DNA from: Deltaproteobacteria bacterium
GTDB lineage: Bacteria > Desulfobacterota > Binatia > UTPRO1
Length of the DNA stretch: 36,850 nt
Direction of reading: 5' to 3'
NCBI GenBank assembly: GCA_020848745.1
Contig: JADLHM010000072.1
Span: 1-36,850 of the forward strand
In this document: one piece after another, positions 246 through 24,268 of the stretch
Numbering within the stretch: the stretch's first letter is position 1
How the letters are laid out: every line of letters begins with the position of its first letter
Translations under genes and position numbers: made by a program
Notes under the pieces: model-generated
The model's database searches: none
Seen by the model: the letters and a program-made list of their open reading frames with translations, nothing else
Told to the model about the DNA's origin: nothing

Positions 246-1040
246 TCAATGATGACCGTGCGCGCCGTGGTCGTGGCGGCCCGGCGCGGCGTCGGCGCCG
301 GACGGAAACGGCAGGGTCATGAGGATCCGCGCTCCCCCGAGGTCGACGTCGACCGTCACGTCGTCGTCGTCCGCACGCCGGCTCTCACCGGTGACGACGA
401 GGCCTCCCCGTTCGGGCGCCGGGGTCAGGCGACCCTCGCGCGCACGGCCGGCGCGATCACGGATCCGCGCGCTGCCGGACGCTGCGGCGACGTCGAGCGG
501 CTGCATGAAGGCGTCGAGCAGATACACGCGCACCTCGCCGCCGACGCGGCCCACGAGCTCGACGTGGCGGTCGCCGGACATGCCGATCACGCCGCCGTGC
601 GGCGCCAGATCGTGGTCGTGGGCGCGCCACACCTCCTCGACCGCGATCGAGCGCAATCCCGCCTCCTCGCCGACCCGACCCGCGACGCGCACGCGGGCGC
701 CGTGCTGCGCCAGCCACCGCGCGCGCTCGGCGGGCACTCCCCGACCGACCCGCAGCAGCCAGAGCTCGCCGGTCGCCTCGTCGCGGAGAAACCGCGTGGT
801 CCCGTCCCGCGCGACGCCGGCGAGCCGCGCGCAGAGGTCGTCCGAGCCCGCGTCGCTCCGCGGCGCGCACGGATCGGGCACGACGTCGCCGGCCGCCGTC
901 GCGCGGTCGGCCGCGTACCCGTACGCCCACGACGCCGCGACGAGCAGCGCGGCGCACGCGCTCCGTCGCAACGTACGCCCGGGTGATGGGCTCGTCATCG
1001 AGCGGCCGCCGCGGCCGCCGCGCTCTCGCATGTCGTTCAT
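246..1040 (-). CDS. Exported protein with His-rich tail, unknown function
   Basis: 264 residues. The start at 1040 is preceded by GGAG at suitable spacing; in-frame Met codons at 1031 and 998 are alternatives. Residues about 24-44 are a hydrophobic export signal ending near Ala-rich sequence. A Gly-Val-Ile-Gly-Met segment near residues 150-175, followed by a Tyr-Leu-Leu-Asp-Ala-Phe string, recalls small periplasmic domains I associate with heavy-metal efflux loci, but I cannot name a family securely. The C-terminus ends in a His-rich tail (HDHGAHGHH) that could bind metal. It lies 43 bases downstream of the beta-lactamase-kinase fusion gene on the same strand and is probably cotranscribed with it. 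Function unknown. Confidence 0.65.
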   Translation of the reverse strand: MNDMRERGGRGGRSMTSPSPGRTLRRSACAALLVAASWAYGYAADRATAAGDVVPDPCAPRSDAGSDDLCARLAGVARDGTTRFLRDEATGELWLLRVGRGVPAERARWLAQHGARVRVAGRVGEEAGLRSIAVEEVWRAHDHDLAPHGGVIGMSGDRHVELVGRVGGEVRVYLLDAFMQPLDVAAASGSARIRDRAGRAREGRLTPAPERGGLVVTGESRRADDDDVTVDVDLGGARILMTLPFPSGADAAPGRHDHGAHGHH

Positions 1041-1083: not shown

Positions 1084-3015
1084 TCAGCGGACGGCGATCT
1101 TTCCGGCGTCGACGTCCGCGAGGAGGTCCGCGATACGTTGCTTCAGCAGTCGGATCTCCTTCGTGGTGAGACCGAGCTGGATCCTGTCGGGGGCGATGCG
1201 GACGCCCTTCGCCGGATCGATGGGGGCGGTACCGCGGGCGAGCCGGAAGATGCCGCTCGCGTCCCTGTTCATGTCGAACAACGCCGCGAGCCGGTCCACC
1301 TCCTCCGTCGGCAGCGCGCGCAGGCGCGCGATCGGATCGGCGCGGAGCCAGGGCACGCGGATCTCGTTCCAGTTGGGAACGAAGAAGTTCCACGGGAACC
1401 CTTCGAACGAGATGCCGTTGTCGATGGCGAAAATGCGGGGGTCGTTCGGATCCGTGGAGATGAGGAAGTTGCCTTCCCGACCGTCACGATGGTCGATGAG
1501 GTACGTGACGAGGTTCAGGTCGGCGAGATGCCGGGCGAGATGCGGATTCTCCTCGACGCGCCGCGCGATGTCCTCGTCGAGATCGTCCACGACCTCCACG
1601 TCGTTCATCCAGACCGCGAACAGTCCGAGGACACACGACGTCCTCGGGACGCTCGGGGTCGCCTTCGCGTCGGCGACGCCGTACACGTCGAGCGGGATGC
1701 AGCGAGGCACCGGCGTCGGCACGACGTAGTCCTCCTCGTCGAAGAGCCAGCGCTGGATCACGTAGGCCGCCAGCTCCTTGCGGGGCGAGTTGTTCCAGCC
1801 GTCGAGCGTCTTGTCCGGGAAGCGCTTCCACTTCACCTTCAACGTCTGTCCGTCCGCGAACCGCACGATGAACCGGGCCGCACCGGTCACACCCGCGCCC
1901 GCGCTCTTCACCTCGGTGATCTCGAAGTCGTCGAAGGCGAGCTTCAAGTCGAGCACCGATGGCGCCATCGGCCAGTTCCGCGGCAACGGCTTTCCGACCT
2001 GCTCCGGAGGTCCGAAGAGATACTGCGCCGCGCGATGGGTGAGCTGCGCGATCAGCTCGCCGCGGTAGGCGGGTGTCGCCTCGGTGAAGACGGCGAGCGC
2101 GAACTGGTGCCCGTCGGGAGCGCGCACGATGCCGGCGTCGGCGTAGTCCGGACCCCAGGTGCCGCTCTTCGCGTACACCTCGAGGCCCGGGATGCGCGCC
2201 GCGCCGCCGGCGATGCGACGCGCCAGGTGCGGCTGCTGCTTCGGGTCGCGCTTCATCCGGCGGCGGACGGTGGCGGAGTCCCCGGGCGTGAGCGCGCGAT
2301 CGGTCGCGAGCAGCCCGAGCAGCTTCGCCGTGCCGATCGCGCTCATGGCCTGGCGGTTCGGGTACTCGCCGTCGTCGCTCACGAGGCCGCCGGTGAGGGT
2401 GCGATCGCGCAAGAACTGACGATCGCGGCCGGCGAGATCGCCGCCGCCGTCGTAGGTGGGATTCACGCAATGGAGGTCGTCGATGCCGAGATCCTGGAGC
2501 CAGCGTTTCACGACCTGCCGGCGCTCGCGGTACGCACGGTACTCGTGCGGCGGCAACTCCGGTCCGGGCGTGGTCTCCGTGAGTCGTGCGAACACCTTCT
2601 GCGTCGCCTGATTGCTGCTCTCGCGGATCATCGCCTCGAGCTGCTCGTCGAGCGCGGGGTCGATGGTGAGCCGCCCTTCTTCCCGCCAGCGGTAGGCCGC
2701 CATCAGGTACACGAACTTGACGACGCTCGCCGGGTAGATCGGTCGATCGCCTCCGACGTGCGCGAGACGGGGCGGCCCGTCCGTCGGAATATCGAGCAGC
2801 GCGACGCCGATCGTGGCGCGCCGCAGCGACGGATCGGATCCGGCGAGGGTCGCCATCGTGCGATCCAGGAACGTCTGCAGCTCGGGCGCGGGACGGGTCG
2901 TCGCGAGCCAGGCTCGCGCCGCCATCGCGGCGGGCGGCCCGGTCGCGGCCGCGGCGAGGCCGCTCATCGACCCGAGGAGCAGCGCGGCAAGTGCCGATCG
3001 CGTGATCGCACGCAT
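1084..3015 (-). CDS. Exported beta-lactamase-like hydrolase fused to a kinase-like domain
   Basis: 643 residues. I start at 3015 because the next residues form a signal peptide (MRAITRSALAALLLG, Ala-rich cleavage region); the frame is open to 3132, and 3030 is an alternative start. Residues about 40-330 carry the serine beta-lactamase/DD-peptidase motifs: SVVK at 97-100 (nucleophile Ser97, Lys100), SSN at 133-135 and KSG at 283-285. Residues about 355-640 look like a protein- or lipid-kinase fold: a possible ATP-binding lysine in LKVKWK (393/395), a candidate helix-C Glu414, HRD at 509-511 with Asn516 exactly five residues after the Asp, and DNG at 532-534 in place of DFG. Both domains retain their key residues. 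What is phosphorylated, if anything, is unknown. A divergent operon of envelope enzymes lies next door. The hydrolase assignment is firm; the kinase assignment is motif-based. Confidence 0.85.
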   Translation of the reverse strand: MRAITRSALAALLLGSMSGLAAAATGPPAAMAARAWLATTRPAPELQTFLDRTMATLAGSDPSLRRATIGVALLDIPTDGPPRLAHVGGDRPIYPASVVKFVYLMAAYRWREEGRLTIDPALDEQLEAMIRESSNQATQKVFARLTETTPGPELPPHEYRAYRERRQVVKRWLQDLGIDDLHCVNPTYDGGGDLAGRDRQFLRDRTLTGGLVSDDGEYPNRQAMSAIGTAKLLGLLATDRALTPGDSATVRRRMKRDPKQQPHLARRIAGGAARIPGLEVYAKSGTWGPDYADAGIVRAPDGHQFALAVFTEATPAYRGELIAQLTHRAAQYLFGPPEQVGKPLPRNWPMAPSVLDLKLAFDDFEITEVKSAGAGVTGAARFIVRFADGQTLKVKWKRFPDKTLDGWNNSPRKELAAYVIQRWLFDEEDYVVPTPVPRCIPLDVYGVADAKATPSVPRTSCVLGLFAVWMNDVEVVDDLDEDIARRVEENPHLARHLADLNLVTYLIDHRDGREGNFLISTDPNDPRIFAIDNGISFEGFPWNFFVPNWNEIRVPWLRADPIARLRALPTEEVDRLAALFDMNRDASGIFRLARGTAPIDPAKGVRIAPDRIQLGLTTKEIRLLKQRIADLLADVDAGKIAVR

Positions 3016-3134: not shown

Positions 3135-6100
3135 ATGGAACGATGGCAACGTGGGCTCGCGGCGACGGTGCTGTTGTCGGCGGCGCTCGGCCTGACGGCT
3201 CCGGGGGAGACGTTCGAGGCGCCGACGCTCTCGCCGGCTCAAGAAAAGACCTTGAAGCAGAACTTCGCGCTCTGCCTGAGCAAGCTGAAGGGTCCCTACA
3301 CGGAGAATTTCTGCCTCTGCCGCGACGGCGAGAAGCGCGCCGTACAGGCGCCGAACGGCGCCGTCCGCATCCCGTGCCCGAACCCGATCTTCTGCGCCGC
3401 GTACCGCGCGCCCTGGGCTGAAGCGCTCGCCAAGGAGCGCATGTACATCGCGAACATCTTCTCGCGCGACGCGAACCTCTGGTCGACCTTCCCGAACCAC
3501 CACGACCTCGTGCGCGGCTACGTCCTCGAGAAGTATTTCATCGAGACGCACCCCAACCACAAGCTCGCGCAGATGAAGCAGTACCGCGGGCTCTCGAGCG
3601 CCGAGGAGGAGATTCCGGCGGCGCTGGCGTTCTTCGAGAAGTACCTCGGCTCCGACGAGTTCGACGGCAACCGTCACTACGTCCTCGCCTACGAGCTGCA
3701 ACGCCGCTACTTCGCGCGCGACGACGTCGGCCAGGTGCAGAAGGTGCGCAACCTGGCGGTGCGGATCGAGCAAGCGCGCGCCGATTTCAAGCCGCTGAAG
3801 GACGCCGTCCACAACCAGGTGTCGGCGGGGTTGATCCCGGGCCTCGCCGCGTACCGCGCGAAGCTTCCCGCGGGGGCCACGCGCGACCAGCTCGACGACC
3901 TCATCCGCGAGATCCAGAAGCTGACCGTTCTCGACGAAAGCGCCCTCGCGCCGCAGGTGCAGGGGATCGCCGACCAAAAGACGCGCGACGAGTTGGCGGC
4001 GCTCCTGCCGAACACCGCGGCGGCGCCGGTCGACGCGGTGGTCGCGCTCGGCAAGATGATGGCGGCGGCGCGGCGCGCCGTCGCCGCTCGCGCCGTGCCG
4101 CCCGCCGACATGCGCCGCCTCGTCGATCTCGCGATCACCGCCGCGCAGGTCCTCCAGCACCGCGGCAGCTCGCTCCTCGCCACCGCGGGCACGACCGCGC
4201 AGCAGCACGTGGCGATGCTCGGCGCGCTCACCGAGGCCGCCTACGGCACCGGGCTGCTGAACGCGCGCGAGCGCGACGCGGCGGGCGCCGCCGTCCGCGA
4301 CCTCGGGGCGCACGCCTCCCCGGACCGCACCGAGTTCGCACGCCGGCTCCGCGAGGCCAAGCGGGTCGTCGAGTGGGCCCAGGGCAACGCCGAGCTCGGC
4401 TTCGCCGAGGTGATGGCGCCCTGGACCTTCCTCCTCCCCGACACCGCCGGCATCCGCGACGACGTGCTGCGCGGCTCGCCGCTCATCCTCTACGCCGAGG
4501 TCGCGAGCCGGCTCGACGACTTCGTCGCCGGCGGCGACCGCCCGAAGCACCGCTTCTTCGGCGCCACGGTCGAGAGCGACGTGCGAGCGCTCAACCCGGG
4601 CCTCGCCTACGGACGGCTGCGGGTCGGCCCGAAGGACCACGGCTACACGCGCGACGAGATCGTCGCGCTCACGGAGACGCCCGCCGACCTCGACCCCGCG
4701 GCCGGCATCCTCACCCAGGGCGAAGGCAACGTGCTCTCGCACGTCCAGCTCCTCGCGCGCGCGCTCGGCATTCCGAACATCGTCCTCGGCCCCAAGGCCT
4801 TCGATCGCCTCCGCATGCACGACGGCAAAGCCGTGGTGCTGATCGCGACCCCGGGCGGCCGCGTCGTCATCGAGGAGGCGACGAGCCTGTCGCCCGAGAT
4901 CCGCGAGGCGTACGCCGAGTACACGCGCAACGAGACGCGCACGGCGGCGGGAACGCTCGGCGGCGGCGCCAAGCGCCTCCACATCGACCGCGCCAAGATC
5001 GACCTCGGACCGAAGCTGCCGATCGACCTGCGGAACGTACGGCGCAAGGACTCGGGTGTCTTCTGCGGCCCGAAGGCGGCGTTCCTCGGTGAGCTGAAAT
5101 CGCTCTTCCCGGACCACGTGGCGCGCGGGATCGTGGTGCCGTTCGGCGCGTACCACGCGCACTACTCGCGGGCGACGGTCGTCGTTCCCGACGCGCTGCG
5201 CGGTCGGAGCGTCGCGACGCCGGGCGAGCCGCTCCCGGCGTTCGTCGAGCGCACCTACCGGACGTTCTTTGACGAGCTCGCGCCGTCGGGAAAGAGCGAG
5301 CGCGAGCTCTCGGAGTGGATCGAGCCGCGCCTCGAGGTGATCCGCTCCACCATCCGCGCCACGCCGCTCGACCCGGCGCTCCGCCAGGCGATCCGCGACG
5401 GGCTCGCGAAGAACGGCCTGCTGCGCGGCGGCGACGACACGGTCGGCTGCTTCGTGCGGAGCGACACCAACGTCGAGGACCTCGACAACTTCAACGGCGC
5501 CGGGCTGAACCTCACGGTCTTCAACCGGCGCACGCTCGACGACATCTACGCCGGTCTCACCGAGGTGTGGGCGTCGCCGTTCCAGTTCCGCTCGTTCTCG
5601 TGGCGGCAGACCCTCATCGACGACCCGATCTGGGTGCTCTCGTCGGTCGTCATCCTCGAGTCGGTGCCGTCGGAGAAGTCGGGCGTGCTCGTCACCGCCG
5701 ACGTGAACGGCGGCGAGCCCGGGAAGATGCTGGTCGCGACGTCGGAAGGCGTCGGCGGCGCGGTCGACGGGACGTCGGCGGAGACGCTCCTCTGGTCGCC
5801 CCACGGCGTCGAGCTCCTCACCCTCTTCAAGTCGCCGTGGCGGAACGCGCTCGACGTCGACGGCGGCAGCAAGATCGTCCCCTCGACCGGACGCGACACC
5901 GTCCTCGAGCCGGCCGAGCTCGAGCAACTCGTCGCGGCCGGCAAGAAGATCACCGACGAGTTCACGCCGGTTCGGAACGCCGCCGGGAAGCCGAAGCCCT
6001 GGGACATAGAGTTCGGATTCACCAACGGCAAGCTCTGGCTCTTCCAGTGCCGTCCGTTCCTCGGCAACGACGAGCTCAAGAACATCCCGGCCCTGGCGGC

Positions 6101-6164
6101 GCTCGACAGCCCGCCGAGCGGCGCCCGCACGGCCAAGCTCTCGCTCGCGCAGGTCCTGAGATGA
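3135..6164 (+). CDS. Exported dikinase-like protein (His domain then C-terminal ATP-grasp)
   Basis: 1009 residues. Residues 1-22 are a signal peptide. Five cysteines between residues 47 and 87 (47, 60, 62, 81, 87) fit disulfides outside the cytoplasm. Residues about 90-500 are largely helical and unrecognised. A phosphohistidine domain of the PEP-utiliser family follows: GEGNVLSH with His536 in the catalytic position, then ARALGIPN. The C-terminal part is the pyruvate-phosphate-dikinase-type ATP-grasp domain, with VRSDTNVEDL around Arg775 and a closing DIEFGF...QCRPF block near 953-973. His domain before ATP-grasp is the order in alpha-glucan water dikinase, the reverse of PEP synthase. The RSD-x-N-x-EDL motif also resembles that family. 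No starch-binding module is evident. First gene of an operon with two L,D-transpeptidase-like genes; its stop overlaps the next start. The substrate is unknown. Confidence 0.85.
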   Translation: MERWQRGLAATVLLSAALGLTAPGETFEAPTLSPAQEKTLKQNFALCLSKLKGPYTENFCLCRDGEKRAVQAPNGAVRIPCPNPIFCAAYRAPWAEALAKERMYIANIFSRDANLWSTFPNHHDLVRGYVLEKYFIETHPNHKLAQMKQYRGLSSAEEEIPAALAFFEKYLGSDEFDGNRHYVLAYELQRRYFARDDVGQVQKVRNLAVRIEQARADFKPLKDAVHNQVSAGLIPGLAAYRAKLPAGATRDQLDDLIREIQKLTVLDESALAPQVQGIADQKTRDELAALLPNTAAAPVDAVVALGKMMAAARRAVAARAVPPADMRRLVDLAITAAQVLQHRGSSLLATAGTTAQQHVAMLGALTEAAYGTGLLNARERDAAGAAVRDLGAHASPDRTEFARRLREAKRVVEWAQGNAELGFAEVMAPWTFLLPDTAGIRDDVLRGSPLILYAEVASRLDDFVAGGDRPKHRFFGATVESDVRALNPGLAYGRLRVGPKDHGYTRDEIVALTETPADLDPAAGILTQGEGNVLSHVQLLARALGIPNIVLGPKAFDRLRMHDGKAVVLIATPGGRVVIEEATSLSPEIREAYAEYTRNETRTAAGTLGGGAKRLHIDRAKIDLGPKLPIDLRNVRRKDSGVFCGPKAAFLGELKSLFPDHVARGIVVPFGAYHAHYSRATVVVPDALRGRSVATPGEPLPAFVERTYRTFFDELAPSGKSERELSEWIEPRLEVIRSTIRATPLDPALRQAIRDGLAKNGLLRGGDDTVGCFVRSDTNVEDLDNFNGAGLNLTVFNRRTLDDIYAGLTEVWASPFQFRSFSWRQTLIDDPIWVLSSVVILESVPSEKSGVLVTADVNGGEPGKMLVATSEGVGGAVDGTSAETLLWSPHGVELLTLFKSPWRNALDVDGGSKIVPSTGRDTVLEPAELEQLVAAGKKITDEFTPVRNAAGKPKPWDIEFGFTNGKLWLFQCRPFLGNDELKNIPALAALDSPPSGARTAKLSLAQVLR

Positions 6165-7834
6165 GGGGGCGCGCGCGGCCGACCGCGGTGCGGATCGGCG
6201 TGTGGACGCGGAGCCTCGTCGCGATCGCAACCGTCGCGGCCGGGCTCGCGGCGCCGCTACGCGCGCACGCAGCACTCGCGGCGGGCGACACCACCTGGGA
6301 CGGCAGCGAGCCCCCGACCGGCATCTATTTCCATTGGTACGAGCCGTCGTTCTACGCCGGCTTCGCGCCCCGGACACAAGACCCGAGCCGGGTCCACATC
6401 GAGCTCGCACGCGGCAATCAGGTGCGGGTGACGGTCGTCCTCGGCGACGCCGAGCTCGCCGCCTACCTCGGCGACCTGCAGGAGCGCCGCGCGGTCGTCC
6501 AGGAGCTCGTGGACCGGAAGATCCTCACCCTCAGCACGAACCGCGAGTGGGAGCGCTTCACGAAGGCGCTCGACGACGCCGGCGTCGGGGCGGCGCTCGG
6601 CGCCCGCGCGAGCACGAGCCCCGAAGCGTGGCGCGCGAAGAGCCTCGCGGTGATGAAGACGTTGAATCCCGAGCGCGTGTTCTCGATCACGATGCCGCTC
6701 GCCGGGGTCGCGGCGCGCTGGCGGCCCGTGGTCGCCGCCATCGACGGCACGGACCCGGCGCAGCGCCTCGACGCCGCAAACGCCGTCCTCCCCGGCCGGA
6801 TCGTGCTCGAGCAGCTGCCGCCGCCGGTGGACAGCGCGCTCGGCCGCTGCATCGACCCGGCGCGCGGCGGCAAGGACCTCGTCCCCGCCTTCGAGCTCTG
6901 CGTGAAGAACTTCGTCGAGCTCGCGAGCGGATCCCATTACCGCGTGCCGAACGATGCCGTCGTCGCCGACGAGTTCACGGCGATCTATCCCGCCGGCACG
7001 GTCGAGGGAACGACGACCTACAAGGGCGAGAAGCTCCCCGACTTCGGCGTGACCGGCGTCTGGCCGCTCATCCGCCGCACGCACGGCCGCGGCATCCTCG
7101 GCATGGTCGACTACCTCTCGCCGAATCCGGGCTACGGCTACATCGTGATGCTGCCCTACCAATACGCGGGCGGAATCACCTACAACGCGTTCCACAACGC
7201 CGGCGTGCGCTGCCAGCTGAACAGCACGCCCTTCCTGCCGAGCGCCTGGCGCAAGGTCGCGGGCGAGCGCAGCGGCAAGCCGTACGAGAACCTGTGGATC
7301 GTCGGCCGCGGCCCGACGTCGCACGGCTGCACGCGCCTGCCGTCGGGGCACATGAGCGAGCTCCGCCAGATCGTCCCGTCGGAATCGGACACGCTCCTGC
7401 GGGTGCAGACCCACCGCAACCTGCCGGGCTGCTACGACGCGTTCGACATCGACGGCGACGGCGCGCCCGAAGTGATGGGCGTGCAGTACTACCTCGCGTA
7501 CCGCAGCAACGAGCACACGCCGGTGAAGGCGTGGGTGAGCAACCGGCGCGAGCCCTTCTACCGCTGGCTCTACGGCGACAACGTGGTGCTCGGCGCCGTC
7601 GGCGCGACGCGCCTGAAGGACGTACCGGTCTGCCGCTTCGTCGGCAGGAAGGCGTCGGAGCGCACGGTACTCCACGACCTGCCGCTCCACGAGGCTCCAT
7701 ACCAGCCGGAGCAGATCCAGTTCTTCCGCGCCAAGGTCGCGCCCGAGAGCACGCCGGGATTCGAGCTGAACCGCGAGTTGCGTAAGGTCGGCGCCGGGCA
7801 CACGCTCGACCGCTCGCGTCTGCTGCTCCAGTAA
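6161..7834 (+). CDS. L,D-transpeptidase-like exported protein, copy 1
   Basis: 557 residues. The ATG at 6161 overlaps the preceding TGA (ATGA), so translation is probably coupled to the dikinase gene. A signal peptide covers about residues 1-37 (cleavage near AHA-A). The catalytic signature SHGCTR occurs at 387-392 with Cys390 as nucleophile, as in YkuD-type L,D-transpeptidases, which cross-link or anchor to peptidoglycan. The likely partner His345 lies about 45 residues upstream, more than the usual 14-17, so the domain has an insertion or a divergent fold. After it comes FDIDGDGAPEVMG (428-440), which resembles a calcium-binding DxDGD loop. The protein is strongly similar to its downstream neighbour along the whole length (shared FAPRTQDP near 68-75, EAPYQPE near 511-517). 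The family call rests on the Cys motif; the substrate is unknown. Confidence 0.8.
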   Translation: MRGRARPTAVRIGVWTRSLVAIATVAAGLAAPLRAHAALAAGDTTWDGSEPPTGIYFHWYEPSFYAGFAPRTQDPSRVHIELARGNQVRVTVVLGDAELAAYLGDLQERRAVVQELVDRKILTLSTNREWERFTKALDDAGVGAALGARASTSPEAWRAKSLAVMKTLNPERVFSITMPLAGVAARWRPVVAAIDGTDPAQRLDAANAVLPGRIVLEQLPPPVDSALGRCIDPARGGKDLVPAFELCVKNFVELASGSHYRVPNDAVVADEFTAIYPAGTVEGTTTYKGEKLPDFGVTGVWPLIRRTHGRGILGMVDYLSPNPGYGYIVMLPYQYAGGITYNAFHNAGVRCQLNSTPFLPSAWRKVAGERSGKPYENLWIVGRGPTSHGCTRLPSGHMSELRQIVPSESDTLLRVQTHRNLPGCYDAFDIDGDGAPEVMGVQYYLAYRSNEHTPVKAWVSNRREPFYRWLYGDNVVLGAVGATRLKDVPVCRFVGRKASERTVLHDLPLHEAPYQPEQIQFFRAKVAPESTPGFELNRELRKVGAGHTLDRSRLLLQ

Positions 7835-7858: not shown

Positions 7859-9586
7859 ATGCGAACGACGACGAGCATCGTGACGGCGCTGGCCCTGCTT
7901 TCCGCGGCGGTCGGCGCGGCGCCGGCCGCCGCGAAGGACTTCGCGGCGCCCGCGCTCGTCGGCGACCGCGCCGAGCCCGGCCTGATGGTCCAGGAGCCGC
8001 CCCGCTACGGCGTCTTCTACGACGCGCCCGAGCCGTCCTTCTACACGGGATTCGCGCCGCGCACGCAGGACCCCGCGAGCCTCCACGTCCACCTCGGACG
8101 CGGCAACCAGCTGCGCGTGACGGAGGTGCTCTCCGAGGCGGTCGTCCGCGAGTACGCGCGCGACCTCGCCGAGCGTCGCCGCGCCTATCGCGCGCTCGTC
8201 GACGAGGGCCGGCTGCAGCTCACCCAGAACACCGCGTTCGAGGACTTCGAGCGCCGGCTCGACGCGGTCGGCCTCGAACGCATGACGCGCGAGGAAGCGA
8301 CGCTCGCGCCCGACGCGCTCCGCGCCCGCAATCTCGACCTCATCGAGACGCTCAATCCCGGGCGCGTCTTCCGGATCGCGATCCCCGTGCGGAAGCTCGT
8401 CGCCGACTGGGTGCGCGAGCTCGACCGCATCGCCGCCGGCGCACGCGCCCGTCTCGACGCGGGCCGGAAGCTCGATGTCCTGAACGCCCTCCTGCCGACC
8501 CGCCTCTGGCTCGCCGAGATGCCGGCGGACGCCGCCCCGGCGCTCGACGAGCTCGTGCGCCGCGCCCCCGCGAATGCCGACGACGCGGCCGGCATCGATG
8601 CCCTCGTGCCGGCATATACGGCGCTCCTGACGCGCGTCGGCGACGACCGCTACCCGGTGCGGGACGGCGTCGTGCGCTTCGCCGAGTTCACCGCGATCTA
8701 CCCGGTTGGCAGCGTCGCCGCGTACACGACGTGGCGCGGGCGGCCGATCCCGCAGTACCCGACGCCCGGACGCCGCGCCCTCACCAACCACCAGCGCTCG
8801 CTCGTCGCCGACCACATCCCGATCGACGACTCGTACAGCTGGTCGCCCTGGCTGCCGTACATGCACGTCACGCCGACCATGCACAACGCGATCCACACGC
8901 CGTGGTGGAAGATGGGCCCCGGCGACGCGAAGTTCCTACCGGCATCGTGGCAGAAGGTCACCGAGGGCAGCCGCGACGGGGCGCCTTTCAAGAAGCTCTG
9001 GCTGCTCTCGCGCGGCCCCATGTCGCACGGCTGCACCCACCTGAACACGGGCCACATCGCGGAGCTCCGCCAGATCCTCCCCGCCGACGGCGACCGCCTC
9101 TACGACGTCGACGTGTTCCTCACCCGCTCCGAGGACTACGACGTCTTCGACATCGACGGCGACCTCGTGCCCGAGGTGATGGGCGTCCGCTACTTCATCG
9201 CGTACTCGCTGACCTCCGGAAAGCCGGATCGCCTGCGGGTCAAGAACGAGCGCCGCGCCTTCTACGACTGGCTCTACGGCGGCGACCTCCAGTGGGAGGG
9301 CGACCGGGGCGTCTTCCGCGACGCGCGCGACGCGCGCTTCGTCGGGCGCGACGCGCGCGAAGGCCGGAGCTACGCGCGCGTCGCGCTGCGCGAGGCGCCC
9401 TATCAACCCGAGACCGTGCAGTTCTACCGCATGGTCGACATCCCGTTCGCGCGCGCGCTCCGCCAGGTGGGTCTGCACCAGCGCGCACCCGGAGCACTCG
9501 ACGGCCGGCAGGCGTCGAACGTGCGGGTGATGCGCGTCACCGCCGAGGACGGCGCCACGCCGCACCCGCGCCGGCGCGCCCGCTGA
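7859..9586 (+). CDS. L,D-transpeptidase-like exported protein, copy 2
   Basis: 575 residues, 24 bases after copy 1, with a strong ribosome binding site (AAGGAGG) five bases before the ATG. Residues 1-25 form a signal peptide ending AAA. It is a tandem paralogue of copy 1: the N-terminal PEPSFYTGFAPRTQDP block, the central NAIH segment, SHGCTH with Cys392, the FDIDGD loop and the EAPYQPE block are all shared. The residue after Cys-Thr is His instead of the Arg found in copy 1 and in most YkuD enzymes, so the two copies may differ in specificity. The last 30 residues are basic and probably disordered. It is presumably periplasmic, acting on peptidoglycan stem peptides. It is the last gene of the operon; a GC hairpin follows. 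Confidence 0.8.
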   Translation: MRTTTSIVTALALLSAAVGAAPAAAKDFAAPALVGDRAEPGLMVQEPPRYGVFYDAPEPSFYTGFAPRTQDPASLHVHLGRGNQLRVTEVLSEAVVREYARDLAERRRAYRALVDEGRLQLTQNTAFEDFERRLDAVGLERMTREEATLAPDALRARNLDLIETLNPGRVFRIAIPVRKLVADWVRELDRIAAGARARLDAGRKLDVLNALLPTRLWLAEMPADAAPALDELVRRAPANADDAAGIDALVPAYTALLTRVGDDRYPVRDGVVRFAEFTAIYPVGSVAAYTTWRGRPIPQYPTPGRRALTNHQRSLVADHIPIDDSYSWSPWLPYMHVTPTMHNAIHTPWWKMGPGDAKFLPASWQKVTEGSRDGAPFKKLWLLSRGPMSHGCTHLNTGHIAELRQILPADGDRLYDVDVFLTRSEDYDVFDIDGDLVPEVMGVRYFIAYSLTSGKPDRLRVKNERRAFYDWLYGGDLQWEGDRGVFRDARDARFVGRDAREGRSYARVALREAPYQPETVQFYRMVDIPFARALRQVGLHQRAPGALDGRQASNVRVMRVTAEDGATPHPRRRAR

Positions 9587-9722: not shown

Positions 9723-10919
9723 GTGACCGCCGCCGATCGCCGCCTCGTCGCGCTCCTCGGAGGCGCGATCTTCTTCGAGGGCTACGGACGCTCGCTCGTC
9801 ACCGTGGCGCTCGCCTACGTCGGACGGGACCTGGGCGCATCGTCCGACGCGCTCTCCTACGCGCTCGCCGCGATCGCGCTCGGCTCGCTCGGCGTGCTCG
9901 CGCTCGGCCCGATCGCGGATCGCATCGGCCGGCGGCGGCTCCTCCTCGCGAGCACCGTGCTCTTCGCGCTCCTCGGTGCGGGAACCGCGCTCGCCGGATC
10001 GCTCGCCGGCCTCGTCGCCTGGCAGCTCGCGGCGCGCGTCTTCCAGGAGGGCGCGCTCTTCACCGCGGCCGTGCTCGCCGCCGAGGAGACGTCGCCCGCG
10101 AGCCGCGCCGCCGCGCAGGGCATGCTCGGCACCATGAACGCGCTCGGCGCGGGATTCGCGGCGCTCCTCCTCGCTGCGATCGGGGTCGTGCCGGGTGGCT
10201 GGCGCGGCCTCTGCCTGATGAGCCTGGTCCCGCTCGCGCTCGTGCCCCTGCTGCGCCGCCGCGTCCCGGAGAGCCGCCATTGGCTCGCGCATCGCGGGCC
10301 GCGGATCGCGCTGCCGCCGAGGGCCTGGCGCGGTCGCGTCGCCGCGACGCTCGTCGTGGTCGCGCTCGCGATGAGCTACGACGTCGCCGCCTTCGCCTTC
10401 GCGACCTACGTCCCCGTCGAGCGCCACGGCTGGAGCGCGGCGGAGGTGAGCACGATGTTCATCGGCGCCGGCTTGCTCGGGCTCCCGGGCTGGTCGGTCG
10501 GCGGCATGCTCGCCGACCGCCACGGACGGCGGCCGATCGGCGTCCTCTTCCTCCTCGGCCTCACGATCGCCGAGCTCGTCTTCTTCCTCGGTGGGCGCCG
10601 CGCGCTCTGGCCGGGCTTCGCGGCGATGGTTTTCTTCCAGGGGGGCAAGATGACCATCATCCGCGCCTGGGCCGCGGAGCTCTTCCCGACCAGCTTCCGC
10701 GGCGCCGCCGCGGGATGGCTCACCGCCGCGGGCGCCGTCGGCGGCATGGGCGGGCTCGCGATCGCGGGGGCGCTCGCCGCGAGCGTCGGCGGCATCCACG
10801 CCGCGCTCGCGATCGTCGCGAGCGCCGGCGTATTCGCGGCCGCCGCGGTCCTGGCATGGCTTCCCGAAACGCGCGGCATCGACCTCGGCCGACCCACGGC
10901 CGATCGGGTCGCCGAGTAG
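9723..10919 (+). CDS. MFS transporter, sugar/organic-acid porter type
   Basis: 398 residues, GTG start. About twelve hydrophobic segments are visible. The loop 2-3 signature DRIGRRR and its second-half repeat ADRHGRRP mark a major facilitator. PESRHWL in the middle and LPETRGIDL at the C-terminus are typical of the sugar-porter and aromatic-acid branches. It would move a small solute by proton-coupled secondary transport across the inner membrane. No substrate can be assigned, because no catabolic genes lie beside it. The start codon lacks a clear ribosome binding site. A hairpin at 10932-10957 follows, so the gene is probably monocistronic. Confidence 0.85.
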   Translation: MTAADRRLVALLGGAIFFEGYGRSLVTVALAYVGRDLGASSDALSYALAAIALGSLGVLALGPIADRIGRRRLLLASTVLFALLGAGTALAGSLAGLVAWQLAARVFQEGALFTAAVLAAEETSPASRAAAQGMLGTMNALGAGFAALLLAAIGVVPGGWRGLCLMSLVPLALVPLLRRRVPESRHWLAHRGPRIALPPRAWRGRVAATLVVVALAMSYDVAAFAFATYVPVERHGWSAAEVSTMFIGAGLLGLPGWSVGGMLADRHGRRPIGVLFLLGLTIAELVFFLGGRRALWPGFAAMVFFQGGKMTIIRAWAAELFPTSFRGAAAGWLTAAGAVGGMGGLAIAGALAASVGGIHAALAIVASAGVFAAAAVLAWLPETRGIDLGRPTADRVAE

Positions 10920-10931
10920 GCGCCATCTCCC

Positions 10932-10957
10932 GCGCCGTGCCGCAGGCGGCACAGCGC
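10932..10957 (+). terminator. GC hairpin after the MFS gene
   Basis: Stem GCGC-C-GTGCCG against CGGCAC-A-GCGC with one C/A mismatch and a four-base loop, 13 bases after the stop codon. There is no T-run, so termination is plausible but not shown. Confidence 0.4.
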
Positions 10958-11066
10958 AACGCGGGTCCGGCGCCGGCGAGCACCTCGACGGTTTCGTGGC
11001 GTTCATGTCCGCGCATCCAACGCGTGCGGCGTCGGCATCGCAACCGATACCTGCTACAGATGCGCG

Positions 11067-11321
11067 ATGGACGAGCCGCGCGGTGTCGAGGTGCCCTACA
11101 CCGCCCTCTCCGAAGAAGCCCTCGGCGGGCTCATCGAAGAGTTCGTGACCCGCGCCGGCACCGACTACGGCGCCGTCGAGCGGACGCTCGCAGAGAAGGT
11201 CGCTGACGTCCGACGACAGCTCGCGCGCGGCGAGGCCGCCATCGTGTACGACCCCGAGACCGAGACGGCGAACGTCGTCGTCGACCCGCGCCGCGCCGGT
11301 GCCGCCAAGACGAGCCCCTGA
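11067..11321 (+). CDS. yheU: YheU family protein (UPF0270)
   Basis: 84 residues. The family core is almost complete: VPYTALSEEAL at the start, LIEEFVTRAGTDYG in the middle, and VRRQLARGEA then DPETETANVVV at the end. The family averages about 70-80 residues, so the length is normal. Its biochemical role is not established. It is cytoplasmic and probably monocistronic, between the MFS gene and a small hairpin. The family call is secure; the function is unknown. Confidence 0.88.
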   Translation: MDEPRGVEVPYTALSEEALGGLIEEFVTRAGTDYGAVERTLAEKVADVRRQLARGEAAIVYDPETETANVVVDPRRAGAAKTSP

Positions 11322-11322
11322 C

Positions 11323-11339
11323 CCGCGCTTCATGCGCGG
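11323..11339 (+). terminator. Short hairpin after yheU
   Basis: CCGCGC, TTCAT, GCGCGG: a perfect 6-bp stem starting two bases after the yheU stop. It is short and has no T-tract, so it is only a weak terminator candidate. Confidence 0.3.
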
Positions 11340-11404
11340 CCGGTCGGAGAGCGCGAACGCGGCCTGGCGCAAGATCACAACCCCGAACACGGGCCCGAGC
11401 CGGC

Positions 11405-11635
11405 TCAGCCGGCGGCGAGCGTCCGCCGGCCGGCCTCGGTCAGCGTGAACGTGCCGTCGGCGAAGGCGACGAGCCCGTCGCCGACCAGGCCCTCCATGAG
11501 CTCCGAGAACGCCTGGTGCCCGGCCTGATAGAAGAGGAGGCTGTGGGTATGGAGCGCGCGGATCGGGAGCGAGCCGCCCTGCTTGGCGAGGAAGGCGAGG
11601 AGACCGCGGCGCGCGGCCGGCACGTCGGTGGCCAT
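11405..11635 (-). CDS. Small winged-helix-like protein
   Basis: 76 residues. Two helical blocks (residues about 8-35 and 38-52) are followed by a GLVAFADGTFTLTEAG segment. This pattern, helix then beta-hairpin then a TEAGR ending, is common in winged-helix transcription factors of the MarR/PadR style, but the protein is shorter than those families and I do not recognise a named one. The start ATG at 11635 lacks a strong ribosome binding site. It is divergent from the Cys-rich lipoprotein gene, with 118 bp between the two starts. It could be a small DNA-binding protein; function uncertain. Confidence 0.6.
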   Translation of the reverse strand: MATDVPAARRGLLAFLAKQGGSLPIRALHTHSLLFYQAGHQAFSELMEGLVGDGLVAFADGTFTLTEAGRRTLAAG

Positions 11636-11753
11636 GGCGCCGTCTTAGCAACACCGCGCATGCCTCGCACGCGAGGTGCTCCACGCGGCCGAGGGCGGGT
11701 AGCATCCGCGCGCGGATTCTCGTAGCGTGGCCCGCCAAGGAGGGTTCCACCGC

Positions 11754-12125
11754 ATGCGATTGTCGAAGACCTTGATCGTCGTTCCCGTGCTCGCGCTGCT
11801 CGCGATGGGCTGCGCACCGCACCGCCACGGTCGACCCGGCTGCCCCCTGGGCGCGGCGTCGGCGTGCGCCGCCGACGGGTGCGTCTACAAGAGCCGCTGC
11901 TTCTCGAACGGCGCCGTGCGCTCGAACGACGGCGTCTGCCAGTCGTGCAACGGCGGCCGCTGGGTCGAAGCGAGCGGCTGCAAGGACCATCACGGCCACG
12001 ACGGCTGTTGCGGCCACCCCGGCTGTTCCGGCCCCAAGGATTGTCCGCTCCTGAAGGGCAAGAATCCTGGTCCGGGCGGGCGGGACGGCGGGCCGGGCGG
12101 TCCGCCCCCCTGCCACAAACGCTGA
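11754..12125 (+). CDS. Small Cys/His-rich lipoprotein
   Basis: 123 residues. I start at 11754 because AAGGAGGG lies eight bases upstream and the next residues are a lipoprotein signal; the open frame from 11727 is longer. The lipobox is LAMGC with Cys20 as the lipidation site. The mature part has about a dozen cysteines, including a CVYKSRCFSNGAV segment that faintly recalls the DUF1496/YnjH pattern, then a His/Cys cluster (HHGHDGCCGHPGC) and a Gly/Pro-rich tail. The cluster suggests metal binding or disulfide knots in the periplasm, but neither is shown. A strong hairpin ends the transcript at 12147-12184. Confidence 0.75.
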   Translation: MRLSKTLIVVPVLALLAMGCAPHRHGRPGCPLGAASACAADGCVYKSRCFSNGAVRSNDGVCQSCNGGRWVEASGCKDHHGHDGCCGHPGCSGPKDCPLLKGKNPGPGGRDGGPGGPPPCHKR

Positions 12126-12146
12126 GACAGTCTCCTACCGACGGAC

Positions 12147-12184
12147 GGCCGCGGTCCAAGCGCCTCCGCGCTCGGACCGCGGCC
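12147..12184. terminator. Strong bidirectional hairpin between convergent genes
   Basis: Outer arms 12147-12157 and 12174-12184 pair perfectly over 11 bp; after an A/C mismatch the inner AGCGC/GCGCT adds 5 bp around a CTCC loop. It sits between the stops of convergent genes (12125 plus, 12210 minus), so it can end both transcripts. Neither side has a real T-run. Confidence 0.7.
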
Positions 12185-12209
12185 CGCACCGATCGGGCCC
12201 GATCCGCCG

Positions 12210-13754
12210 CTATTCGAGCGGATCCCAGGCGGTCGCGACGACGCGCGCCACGAACGTCGCTCCGCCGAGCCCGTCGGGCTTGAAGATCGCGGCCTCGGCC
12301 CAGGCGAGCTGGTCCAGCAGCGCGCACGTGAAGCCCGCGTGCCCGATGATCGCCGTGTTGGTCGCCGCGGCCGGTACGGACCCGATGAGCGCGTAGGAGG
12401 CCGCGCACCGCCCCGGCTCGTCGTGGACGAAGTACGTGACGTCGGGATCGAGCTCGATCGTCGGCCCGAAGTCCATGAGCTCGGCGGTCGTGACGTTGCG
12501 GCAGAACTCGCTGCTGATCACGCGCCCGACCGGGATGCCGAGCGCGTCGAAGGCCTGGCCGATGGTCGTCGCCTGCGTGACGCCCGTGGCGTTCAGCTGG
12601 CGCGCGGTCGCGGTGGCGCAGTTAGTATCGCAGCTCTTCCACCAGTTCGGCGACATCGTCGTCGCCGCGGTCCCGAGCGCGAGGTTGTCCTGGCAGACGT
12701 CGGCCGCGGCGTGCCGCCAATGGAGCACGTAACCGCCGGCGCGCAGCACCTGCGCGAGGGTCGGTACGAGCGTCGTCCGACTGCCCGTCGACTCGCACAC
12801 ACCGCCGGCGGTACAGCCGAACGCCGCGTAGTGATAGGTGCGGGGCGTGCCCGACGTCGTCGGCAGCAATTCCGAGAGCGGGTCGGACGCGCCCGACGCG
12901 GCGCCGAAGAACACGAGCGCCGCGGCGACATCGGTTGGATCGGCGGGCGCCTCGTTCAAACGGCGCAGCACGCGGACGTGGGTGTTCCCCGAGCCCGGAT
13001 CGGGCGACGTCCAGGTGAGCGCGGCGTGATCGGCGTCGACGGCCACGGCCAGATCCGCCGGTGCCCCGCCGACGCTCGGCGTCGCGGTCGCGCTCACCGT
13101 CGGCGTGGCGGTCGCCGTCGGCGTGGCGGTCGCCGTCGGCGACGGCGTCGGCGACGCGGCGCCGTCGATGATGCGCCCGGCCGCATTCGCCACGAACAGA
13201 TCGACGATCGCCGCGACCGCGGCCGCATCGCCGGCCGCCATGCACCCCGATCGCCTGTCCGCGCGGGCGAACGCCGCGAGGAAGCGCTCGGCGGCCTTCT
13301 CCAAGCACGCCGGCGCGGGTGGCTCCTCGCGTCGTACGCCGACCCGGCGACACGCCAGCGCGTTCGACGCCTTCTGACCCGCCACGCGGAGCTTGGCCGC
13401 CCCGCACCGCCCCGGCGATTGCGTGCCGAGAAGGGCCGTGAGCAGCTCGTCGATGGCGGCGTCGACCGCGCCCTCGTCTTCGACGAACGGGCAGCCGCCG
13501 CGCGCCTCGAGGCGTGCGAAGGCAGCGTCGAGGCGGCTGTCCGCCGATGCGTGGCACCCGGCGCGCACCGGCTTTCCCGTTTCGAGCGCTCGGGCCTGGC
13601 AGGAGACGTGCGCAGCGACGGCACGTGCCGTGGCGTCGAGCTTTCCCGCGACACATCTCTGCGCGGCGGTGGCCGCGGGGCTCGTACTCGCGGCGAAGGC
13701 TGCGACCACGAGCGCAACCACGGTCGACACGGCGACTCGAAGCGACGAGGCCAT
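12210..13754 (-). CDS. Exported multidomain protein: two 4-Cys repeats, FnIII-like, histidine-phosphatase-like
   Basis: 514 residues, start 13754 (TAGGAG upstream, then a signal peptide ending near residue 31). Residues 33-193 are two tandem repeats of about 83 residues, each with four cysteines at identical spacing 18/15/21 (Cys34, 52, 67, 88 and Cys117, 135, 150, 171). A Thr-Pro/Ala-Thr linker covers about 201-227, then an FnIII-like beta domain (about 231-330). The C-terminal part is a histidine-phosphatase-type domain: Arg347-His348 replacing the RHG motif as RHA, Arg419 in SSEFCR, and His472 in IGHAGF. These match the catalytic His, Arg and second His of the superfamily, so activity is possible. 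Probably surface or periplasmic. It lies 10 bases after the SDR gene on the same strand. Substrate unknown. Confidence 0.8.
   Translation of the reverse strand: MASSLRVAVSTVVALVVAAFAASTSPAATAAQRCVAGKLDATARAVAAHVSCQARALETGKPVRAGCHASADSRLDAAFARLEARGGCPFVEDEGAVDAAIDELLTALLGTQSPGRCGAAKLRVAGQKASNALACRRVGVRREEPPAPACLEKAAERFLAAFARADRRSGCMAAGDAAAVAAIVDLFVANAAGRIIDGAASPTPSPTATATPTATATPTVSATATPSVGGAPADLAVAVDADHAALTWTSPDPGSGNTHVRVLRRLNEAPADPTDVAAALVFFGAASGASDPLSELLPTTSGTPRTYHYAAFGCTAGGVCESTGSRTTLVPTLAQVLRAGGYVLHWRHAAADVCQDNLALGTAATTMSPNWWKSCDTNCATATARQLNATGVTQATTIGQAFDALGIPVGRVISSEFCRNVTTAELMDFGPTIELDPDVTYFVHDEPGRCAASYALIGSVPAAATNTAIIGHAGFTCALLDQLAWAEAAIFKPDGLGGATFVARVVATAWDPLE
13099..13134. repeat. 18-bp tandem repeat encoding Thr-Pro/Ala linker
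   Basis: Two perfect 18-bp units (GTCGGCGTGGCGGTCGCC), with a degenerate continuation to about 13155, lie inside the exported histidine-phosphatase-like gene and encode its ATATPT linker. Copy number could vary by slippage and change linker length without shifting frame, because the unit is a multiple of three. Confidence 0.6.
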
Positions 13755-17119: not shown

Positions 17120-17494
17120 ATGATTCGTCTCGTACTGCTCACGGTCGGATTGGCGGCGCTGACGCTGGCCGTCCCCGCCTACGCGACCGAAGTCGCGACC
17201 GCTCCGATGCTCGGCACCGAGCTTTCCTCGGGCCGGGTGCGCTGCCTCGCGGTCAACATGGACACGAAGCCGAAGCTGCTCACGCGCATGGAGATGGTGA
17301 ACGCGGGCGGGACCGTGATAACGAGCGTCGCGGCCCCCGTGCTCGTCCCGCCGGGACAGATGCACCTGAGCGCGTTCGCGGATCTCAGCTCCGCGAGCCC
17401 GGCGTACTGCCGCTTCGCCTTCCAGGGGAAGTTCCGCGCGTCCTTGATGTACTGGAACGGCACGGCGCTGGAGATCGTGCCCGCGACGAAGTGA
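17120..17494 (+). CDS. Small exported protein, unknown
   Basis: 124 residues. GGAGG lies eight bases before the ATG, and residues 1-22 form a clear signal peptide (ending AYA-T). The mature chain is mostly beta with two cysteines, at about residues 42 and 95, that could pair. It contains a VPPGQMHLSAF segment and ends in a hydrophobic strand before PATK. I do not recognise a family. It lies 164 bp before the peroxidase gene in the same direction, and that spacer shows no strong terminator. It probably works in the periplasm. Confidence 0.75.
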   Translation: MIRLVLLTVGLAALTLAVPAYATEVATAPMLGTELSSGRVRCLAVNMDTKPKLLTRMEMVNAGGTVITSVAAPVLVPPGQMHLSAFADLSSASPAYCRFAFQGKFRASLMYWNGTALEIVPATK

Positions 17495-17658
17495 GCGTCG
17501 GCATCGCGCGCGAGCGCGGTGGTGAACCAGACGACGCTCGCCCGCCGAGCCCGGCGCCCCGGATCGGCGTGCGGGATCGCTCGACAGCTCGCCGGGAATG
17601 CCGTACTGGCGATCGCACCCCGGAAGCACGCCCGAAAGATCAAGAGGAGGTTTCGGTG

Positions 17659-18720
17659 ATGGGTCTTCGTTCGATCGTCTCGACATTGGGACTCTTCGCG
17701 CTGCTCACCGTGTCCACGCTCGCCGCGTGGGCGACGCCGCCGTGGGAGGCAGTAAATCCGATCAAGCCGCTGCCGAAGCCGCCGCTCGGCATCTACTCGA
17801 AGTTCGAGGATCTCCCGGCGCCGCCGACGCCCGAACGCGTCCGGCTCGGCCGCTGGCTCTTCTTCGACAAGCGCCTCTCGGCGGACAACACCATCGCGTG
17901 CGCCACCTGCCACCAGCCCGAGCACGCCTTCTCCGAGCGCACGCCGCACTCGACCGGCATCCGCGGCCAGCAAGGCGCGCGCAAAGCGCCGGGTTTCGTG
18001 AACCTCGCCTGGACGATCTTCCCGAACTTCTTCTGGGACGGCCGCGCGGCGTCCTTGGAAGAGCAGGCGCTCGGACCGGTCGCCAACCCGATCGAGATGG
18101 GGAGCACCCACGAGGCGATGGTCAAGACCTGCGAGATGAAGGGCTACAAGCCCTACTTCAAGGAAGCGTTCGGTTCGGAGGAAATCACCAAGGAGCGTGT
18201 CGTCCAGGCGATCGCCGACTACGAGCGCACCCGCATGAGCGGCAACAGCCCGGTCGACAAGTGGCAGGTCGGCAAGGACGAGAAGGCGGTCTCGGCCGAG
18301 GTGAAACAGGGCTGGGAGCTCTTCTTCGGCAAGGCCGAGTGCAACCAGTGCCACCTCGGCGAGAACTTCACCGACAGCCGCTTCCACAACCTCGGCGTCG
18401 GCTGGGACGCCCAGAAGAAGGAGATGAAGGACCTCGGACGCTATGCGATCAGCAAGAAGGACGAGGATCGCGGCGCGTTCAAGACGCCCGGGCTGCGCGA
18501 GGTCGCGAAGCATCCGCCATACATGCACGACGGCTCGATCGCGACGCTCGAGGCGGTCGTCGAGCACTACAACAAGGGCGGCAACGCGAACCCCTGGCTC
18601 TCGACCCGCATCCGCAAGCTCGATCTGGACAAGGCCGAGGTGCAGGCGCTCGTGAAGTTCATGGAGGCCCTCTCGGGGGAGGGCTACGCCGACACCGCGC
18701 CGACCGCCTTTCCGCAGTAG
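17659..18720 (+). CDS. Di-heme cytochrome c peroxidase (CcpA/MauG family)
   Basis: 353 residues with signal peptide 1-26 and a good ribosome binding site (GAGGAGG). Two c-type heme sites are visible: CATCH at 81-85 and CNQCH at 228-232. GRWLFFDKRLS (64-74) before the first heme, the NFFWDGR block and HPPYMHDGS near 285-292 are standard family landmarks. Periplasmic enzymes of this family reduce hydrogen peroxide with electrons from cytochrome c or cupredoxin; MauG-like members instead oxidise protein residues. The length and WDGR motif favour a peroxidase. The electron donor is not encoded nearby. GC-rich palindromes (GGGCCCGG repeats) follow the stop. Confidence 0.92.
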   Translation: MGLRSIVSTLGLFALLTVSTLAAWATPPWEAVNPIKPLPKPPLGIYSKFEDLPAPPTPERVRLGRWLFFDKRLSADNTIACATCHQPEHAFSERTPHSTGIRGQQGARKAPGFVNLAWTIFPNFFWDGRAASLEEQALGPVANPIEMGSTHEAMVKTCEMKGYKPYFKEAFGSEEITKERVVQAIADYERTRMSGNSPVDKWQVGKDEKAVSAEVKQGWELFFGKAECNQCHLGENFTDSRFHNLGVGWDAQKKEMKDLGRYAISKKDEDRGAFKTPGLREVAKHPPYMHDGSIATLEAVVEHYNKGGNANPWLSTRIRKLDLDKAEVQALVKFMEALSGEGYADTAPTAFPQ

Positions 18721-18897
18721 ACGACGGCCGGGCCCGGCGCGCTGACGACGGGCCCGGCGCCGCGATGTGTCACCGTCGACACGCGCGGGGTCACATCTGG
18801 CGCGCGATGATGCCGTAGATTGCCAAGCGCGCGCGCCGAGACGCGATACGGCAAGCGCTGTGAACTGGTCCATGGCTTGCTCGGTACCGCGCTGGCC

Positions 18898-23744: not shown

Positions 23745-23833
23745 CGCGCGCCCTTATCGGGCGTCGGAACGCGACGCAACACCCGAGGCGGAAGAAGGAA
23801 GGATGCCGTCGCCATACGCGCTTGAAGTGAAAA

Positions 23834-23906
<73 letters not shown>

Positions 23907-23981
23907 ACGCGCTTCGGTTGGCGAGAGCGCGCGAATCTAGACGATTCGTCGCGCGCTGTCACGCGTTGGTGAAGTGGAAAG

Positions 23982-24055
23982 GGTGACTGAAGGGCTTCGA
24001 ACCCTCGACCCCCGGAGCCACAATCCGGTGCTCTACCAACTGAGCTACAGTCACC
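23982..24055 (-). tRNA. tRNA-His (GTG)
   Basis: Minus-strand cloverleaf with acceptor GTGACTG/CAGTCAC, anticodon loop TTGTGGC (GTG), and T-loop TTCGAAG. The extra G at position -1 faces C73, the identity signature of histidine tRNA. CCA is not encoded. Third in the cluster. Confidence 0.96.
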
Positions 24056-24092
24056 ACGTGTCGCTGCTCGTCTTCGATGCGTCCTATCAGAG

Positions 24093-24166
24093 CGCGCCAG
24101 AGGGGATTCGAACCCCTGACCTACGGCTTAGAAGGCCGTTGCTCTATCCAACTGAGCTACTGGCGC
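24093..24166 (-). tRNA. tRNA-Arg (TCT)
   Basis: Minus-strand cloverleaf with acceptor GCGCCAG/CTGGCGC, anticodon loop CTTCTAA (TCT), T-loop TTCGAAT, and discriminator G. It reads AGA/AGG, which are rare in such a GC-rich genome. CCA is not encoded. Second in the cluster. Confidence 0.96.
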
Positions 24167-24194
24167 AAGCCGGAAGCGGAAACGTGCCAGCCAA

Positions 24195-24268
24195 TCGGGG
24201 CGAGAGGATTTGAACCTCCGACCCCCTGCGCCCAAGGCAGGTGCGCTACCAGGCTGCGCCACGCCCCG
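24195..24268 (-). tRNA. tRNA-Pro (TGG)
   Basis: Minus-strand cloverleaf with acceptor CGGGGCG/CGCCCCG (the C1-G72 pair typical of bacterial proline tRNA), anticodon loop CTTGGGC (TGG), T-loop TTCAAAT and discriminator A. First tRNA of the cluster after the putative promoter. CCA is not encoded. Confidence 0.96.

Follow-up and report, generated by a model that had tools for sequence, protein, structure and literature searches.

An exported serine hydrolase–kinase fusion in a deltaproteobacterial genome and its recurrent neighbours, an exported dikinase and NTT-family carriers

The stretch of DNA analyzed here (36,850 nucleotides; hereafter the window) contains, at positions 1084 to 3015 of the minus strand, a gene for a 643-residue protein in which a signal peptide is followed by a PBP-A-like serine hydrolase and then by a kinase-like domain similar in predicted fold to Fam20 and to type II PI4-kinases (PI4K-II). 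Comparison of gene neighborhoods places the kinase in a recurrent exported module, new here, that includes the hydrolase, an exported dikinase, often exported proteins with an SHGC motif, and transporters homologous to the NTT family of ATP/ADP carriers. Our explanation as a whole, in which we place middling confidence, is that the exported hydrolase–kinase operates in an extracytoplasmic phosphotransfer module to which the NTTs would supply periplasmic ATP.

A sequence-only reading of the window had described the 643-residue frame and its signal peptide without naming a strand, and we found both on the minus strand. The signal peptide (residues 1 to ~23; 2947 to 3015), as judged by inspection of the sequence, is MRAITRSALAALLLGSMSGLAAAA. 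The plus-strand translation of 1084 to 3015 is likewise open, but we read it as a GC-rich shadow because every homologue matches the minus-strand frame. All three species sampled from the genus have the frame without interruption, the window protein being 87 and 80% identical to its two counterparts, and among these three genus members dN/dS was about 0.16–0.19 for the hydrolase half and about 0.18–0.27 for the kinase half, indicating purifying selection on each. These comparisons confirm, at the level of sequence, that the exported fusion protein is genuine and more than a product of chance. Although the source assembly, from an uncultured bacterium, is draft-level and MAG-like (155 contigs), an assembly error or chance read-through is hardly credible: the fusion is unbroken in each of the three species and selection is purifying on both halves, which, as far as sequence can, rules out an artifactual origin. 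Directly downstream of the fusion lies a gene (246 to 1040, minus strand) whose 264-residue product begins with a signal-like segment and matches no Pfam family; G001 has it in the same position. A PADLOC search gave no match to any defense system for the fusion and three neighbors.

The first half of the protein (residues ~43–335; 2011 to 2889, minus strand) matched the Pfam family Beta-lactamase2 (PF13354) with an E value of 3e-14 and a score of 53.3 bits, above the gathering score of 22. The SVVK (Ser97 to Lys100; 2716 to 2727), SSN (residues 133–135; 2611 to 2619), and KSG (residues 283–285; 2161 to 2169) motifs picked out in the sequence-only reading are present on the minus strand, and the catalytic residues of SxxK (Ser and Lys), SxN, and K[ST]G are invariant in 11 of 11 aligned homologues. 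That reading had also called the domain class A beta-lactamase-like. The motifs bear out this description in part, but we have narrowed it because no omega-loop glutamate (Glu166 of class A enzymes) is invariant in the alignment of 11 homologues and because the closest solved relative in a profile search of the PDB was TLL2115, the DD-peptidase-type PBP-A of Thermosynechococcus (E 3.6e-11). PBP-A resembles the N half in having SxxK, SxN, and KSG and in having no conserved class A catalytic glutamate. Judging from these alignments and profiles, the N half is more likely a PBP-A-like serine hydrolase of the DD-peptidase type than a beta-lactamase. To our knowledge PBP-A carries no kinase fusion, unlike the window protein with its predicted hydrolase.

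Inactivation of antibiotics, by a class A beta-lactamase joined to a domain of the aminoglycoside-phosphotransferase type, would be in keeping with a motif set that is common to beta-lactamases and with the match of one kinase homologue to APH (E 0.036). We nonetheless consider this very improbable, given the unconserved omega-loop glutamate and the closeness to PBP-A, a score of 18.7 bits with the bla_class_A model (far under its cut-off of 200), a C-half fold closer to Fam20 and PI4K-II, and surroundings that are those of an envelope gene cluster.

The second half of the protein, the kinase-like domain (residues ~344–643; 1087 to 1986, minus strand), is not covered by any Pfam or NCBIfam model. 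A search of PDB sequences with the kinase profile yielded only short tRNA-synthetase matches, which we judged to be spurious; this search being uninformative, a comparison of folds was needed. An AlphaFold model of the C half (pLDDT 86, pTM 0.87) contained a kinase core, in agreement with the kinase-like character proposed in the sequence-only reading. Its best solved match was hydra Fam20 (5xoo; Z 17.8, rmsd 3.4, 249 residues), followed by Fam20C (Z 15.9), PI4K-II (15.5), CtkA (12.4), and PI3-kinases (~10). The predicted structure thus supports assignment of the C half as a kinase-like domain with a fold related to those of Fam20 and PI4K-II. Similarity at the sequence level was weak: PI3_PI4_kinase was matched under its curated cut-off by five of 11 C-half homologues (best E 6e-4) and by a Myxococcota homologue (E 2e-4), with the best homologue scoring 21.7 bits against PF00454 (gathering score 27.1). 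Fam20C (PF06702) was matched at an E value of ~0.1, the best homologue reaching 13.1 bits against a gathering score of 26.8, and a PF06702 search with the window protein itself gave no match. The CotH and HipA families of Pfam were absent among matches at E values up to 10, a range in which the HMMER filters drop weak ones.

The residues expected of a kinase are conserved. Lys395 and Lys397 (1825 to 1833), which lie on a predicted beta strand, Glu414 (1774 to 1776), Asp511 and Asn516 of the HRD-x4-N motif (1468 to 1485), and Asp532 together with the Asn-Gly that follows it (DNG; 1414 to 1422), all on the minus strand, are invariant, and nearly so in a further alignment, whereas the other columns are mostly variable. 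The sequence-only reading had staked its assignment beforehand on Asp511, Asn516, and Asp532, and these are kept in nearly all homologues; Asn516 and DNG are missing from L143 and L144, two divergent proteins of one genome. Among its further candidates Glu414 and Lys395 stand, and Lys393 gives way to Lys397, the second of the invariant lysines. Catalytic-type residues are likewise retained in most Myxococcota homologues, the exceptions being L143, L144, and the very divergent L146. C-half homologues were found in two phyla and in one MAG with an Acidobacteriota title. The L146 homologue (9732 to 12926, minus strand, in G413) forms the C-terminus of a 1065-codon frame and may represent a second kind of fusion.

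The C half is like the Fam20 kinases (Fam20A/B/C and hydra Fam20) in its fold, in the Asp-Asn-Gly motif (the equivalence of Asp511 and Asp532 to Fam20 residues being drawn from fold and motif order), in weak PF06702 similarity across the catalytic region, and in a location outside the cytosol, which here is predicted. It differs in being bacterial, in showing about 14–18% identity and scoring under the PF06702 cut-off, and in having a hydrolase fused or adjacent and NTT genes alongside. Type II PI4-kinases (PF00454) gave the best sequence-level matches (E 2e-4 to 6e-4), but the C half falls under their gathering score and is predicted to be exported, and a lipid substrate for it would be putative. 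CtkA/HipA-like kinases share with it the character of bacterial atypical kinases. The CotH spore-coat kinases are bacterial atypical kinases too, and both groups differ from the window kinase in gene context.

Could the C half instead be a pseudokinase or ligand-binding module that transfers no phosphate and acts as the hydrolase's scaffold or sensor? Its sequence resembles active kinases weakly, activity has been lost in many atypical kinases, and export would take the domain to a compartment normally without ATP. Set against these points are the retention of the Lys, Glu, Asp, Asn, and DNG residues in nearly all homologues when most columns vary and the position of the gene next to NTT and dikinase genes, and we regard a pseudokinase as distinctly unlikely. 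We favor an active kinase.

How did the two halves come together? The sequence-only reading had asked whether the fusion recurs, and it does so in the three species of one genus; outside that genus hydrolase and kinase are separate. G054 and G047, which belong to a different lineage of the class, encode hydrolase and kinase as neighboring genes on one strand, ordered as in the fusion. The kinase and hydrolase of G003 are on different contigs, and in G031, G029, and G035 a hydrolase was present and a kinase was not found. On these comparisons the fusion is young. Nearly all of the unfused kinases have a signal peptide or lipobox of their own, as judged by eye and with a simple script (L033 was masked and the start of L131 was cut off). 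Because of these signals, export of the kinase appears to predate the fusion, and the hydrolase is dispensable for placing the kinase at the envelope, a role that the earlier reading had tentatively assigned to it.

Divergently transcribed from the fusion is a gene (3135 to 6164, plus strand) for an exported, 1009-residue dikinase resembling pyruvate phosphate dikinase (PPDK) and PEP synthase. Its PPDK_N domain scored 79.1 bits against a threshold of 27 and its PEP-utilizer domain just below the cut-off; no Pfam match was obtained for a C-terminal PEP/pyruvate-binding barrel. The exported dikinases retain the phosphohistidine (GEG..SH) and ATP-binding (VRSDTNVEDL) motifs. The neighbor is thus like PEP synthase and PPDK in its PPDK_N domain and phosphohistidine motif, but unlike them it is exported, has its swivelling domain before the ATP-binding domain, and has no detected barrel. 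The order of phosphohistidine domain before ATP-binding domain is seen in an exported dikinase family that comprises the window protein, L089–L095, L106, L127, and L145. The pairing of hydrolase and dikinase is conserved: it was observed at nearly every hydrolase-bearing locus, including those of distant paralogues, other families, and Myxococcota. That a dikinase of the ATP type should be exported is itself a puzzle.

Downstream of the dikinase gene are genes for two paralogous exported proteins (6161 to 7834 and 7859 to 9586, both plus strand) that share an H...SHGCT motif, invariant in seven sequences. The first is YkuD-like by motif only: YkuD (PF03734) scored 13.3 bits, under the gathering score of 23.4, a profile of the family found no relative in the PDB, and an AlphaFold model was of low confidence (pLDDT 44). 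In Myxococcota clusters, hydrolase and dikinase genes flank one for a second exported protein, which is divergent (L034, 969 to 2522; L106, 11168 to 12541, minus strand), and the L034 product has weak similarity to beta-lactamases.

The transporter genes were recognized among membrane proteins encoded near the unfused kinases, which gave weak Pfam matches to TLC, the longer ones with additional HEAT and cNMP-binding domains. A profile of the shorter neighbors matched solved ADP,ATP carriers over its full length (9j3n, E 8.2e-23; 9j3j, E 4.3e-19). The window encodes an NTT-family transporter (18820 to 20433, plus strand) that scored 18.3 bits against PF03219 (gathering score 21), and several of its cluster relatives score above 21. 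This is the second copy in the genome; the first lies on contig C6 together with an NTT-like second transporter gene, and C6 aligns to relatives directly ahead of base 1 of the window (10 bp apart in G001). The cluster transporters are like the NTT (TLC) ATP/ADP carriers of plastids and intracellular bacteria in their full-length homology, and the longer ones share the NTT, HEAT, and cNMP-binding parts of the NTT-HEAT-cNBD proteins of free-living bacteria (PMC5381601). They are unlike described NTTs in their recurrent linkage to genes for exported kinases, dikinases, and hydrolases. Alignment with AtNTT1 gave no clear assignment of substrate residues.

Linkage of NTT and kinase genes was pronounced in the class to which the window belongs. 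An NTT gene lies within 5 kb at nine of 12 kinase loci, against an expectation of ~0.65% per locus that is approximate, derived from search tables, and takes no account of phylogeny. Strong NTT matches were obtained in 17 of 143 genomes, and these include every one of the nine in the class that bear a kinase (hypergeometric 5e-10, phylogeny ignored); most of the genomes are MAGs, and co-location counts are inflated by common ancestry. The gap between kinase and NTT genes is 54 bp in G003, and in G023 the two overlap; the kinase gene is separated from an NTT-HEAT-cNMP gene by 22 bp in G054 and ~10 bp in G047. In Myxococcota an NTT gene adjoins the kinase gene at L034, L127, L132, L141, and L145 and lies no more than 4 kb away at L128, and in paralogous clusters that have no kinase it abuts or overlaps the hydrolase gene. 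Outside the class, no NTT was seen in the examined stretch of L030–L032, L035, and most Myxococcota kinase loci; an NTT-family gene was nevertheless present in five of five genomes checked from among those with NTT-less kinase loci (weak in G152). NTT was not detected in G105, which has a hydrolase–dikinase–SHGC cluster, and the exported genes are absent from several NTT-bearing genomes. Proteins of ~1100 residues with NTT/MFS-like, HEAT, and cNMP-binding parts are encoded next to kinase genes at L051 (6746 to 10255), L052 (9378 to 12866), and L054 (4832 to 8122).

In the arrangement that we propose, the fusion protein would be a Sec-exported, two-domain envelope enzyme whose PBP-A-like half binds or cuts peptidoglycan stem peptides and whose Fam20/PI4K-II-type half is an active kinase for an envelope substrate (glycan, lipid, or protein). 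Together with the exported ATP-dependent dikinase and NTT-family carriers of the inner membrane it would make up the module. NTT carriers are a known route for ATP and ADP across membranes. Kinase and dikinase require a phosphoryl donor once exported, and it is simplest to suppose that the carriers bring ATP into the periplasm, probably moving ATP out and ADP in, and so serve both enzymes. The wall-type hydrolase and the SHGC proteins of the module lead us to infer that phosphorylation takes place on peptidoglycan or a wall-linked polymer. A calcineurin-like metallophosphatase with a signal-like N-terminus is encoded at L028 (10879 to 12255) and L029 (2239 to 3534) by a gene that begins before the kinase gene has ended, which would fit a reversible phosphate mark. 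The fuller proposition, that in free-living bacteria of two phyla NTTs export ATP to feed Fam20-like kinases and dikinases that phosphorylate the envelope in coordination with a PBP-A-like hydrolase, is one that we advance tentatively and with some doubt. Some characterized NTT members carry substrates other than nucleotides, a point against ATP export.

The transporters may instead work in the opposite direction, importing nucleotides or a related solute, either set free by the exported enzymes or scavenged (for example, from lysed neighbors), with kinase and dikinase drawing on ATP from the environment or on a different donor; the cluster would then be a module for scavenging or predation. 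A wall-type hydrolase could target other cells, and Myxococcota are known to be predators. Import of nucleotides is what the characterized NTTs of parasites and plastids carry out (PMC5381601). Import would, however, leave two exported phosphotransferases of the ATP type dependent on outside ATP, many of the kinases are predicted lipoproteins, which better suits a resident envelope enzyme than one released onto prey, and hydrolysis of a prey wall requires no kinase. We consider import rather unlikely, though deserving of attention, and prefer the supply of ATP to the periplasm.

ATP is generally held to be absent from the periplasm of bacteria, which makes exported ATP-using enzymes puzzling. 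What NTT carriers do in free-living organisms is likewise unsettled in the literature: Major et al. (2017; PMC5381601) describe NTT and NTT-HEAT-cNBD proteins there that have no known function, suggesting for them a part in ATP transfer or uptake, and the words "periplasm" and "export" do not occur in the text of that study. The two puzzles meet in one cluster, where, in two phyla, genes for an exported kinase and dikinase adjoin NTT genes. If our proposal is correct, a dedicated carrier would power phosphorylation outside the cytoplasm, a function would be found for some of the NTTs in free-living bacteria, and bacteria would possess an analogue of the phosphorylation that takes place in the eukaryotic secretory pathway. 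At minimum, the predicted fold points to an exported family of bacterial kinases related to Fam20 and PI4K-II and outside the coverage of Pfam and NCBIfam. A literature search that took in few subscription journals found no exported bacterial Fam20-like kinase, NTT-linked dikinase, or periplasmic ATP supply.

Finally, we note two other features of the window. Just upstream of the second NTT gene is a gene (17491 to 18720, plus strand) for an apparent di-heme c-type cytochrome/peroxidase with CATCH and CNQCH motifs, and four consecutive tRNA genes (Lys, His, Arg, and Pro) are located at 23833 to 24268 on the minus strand.
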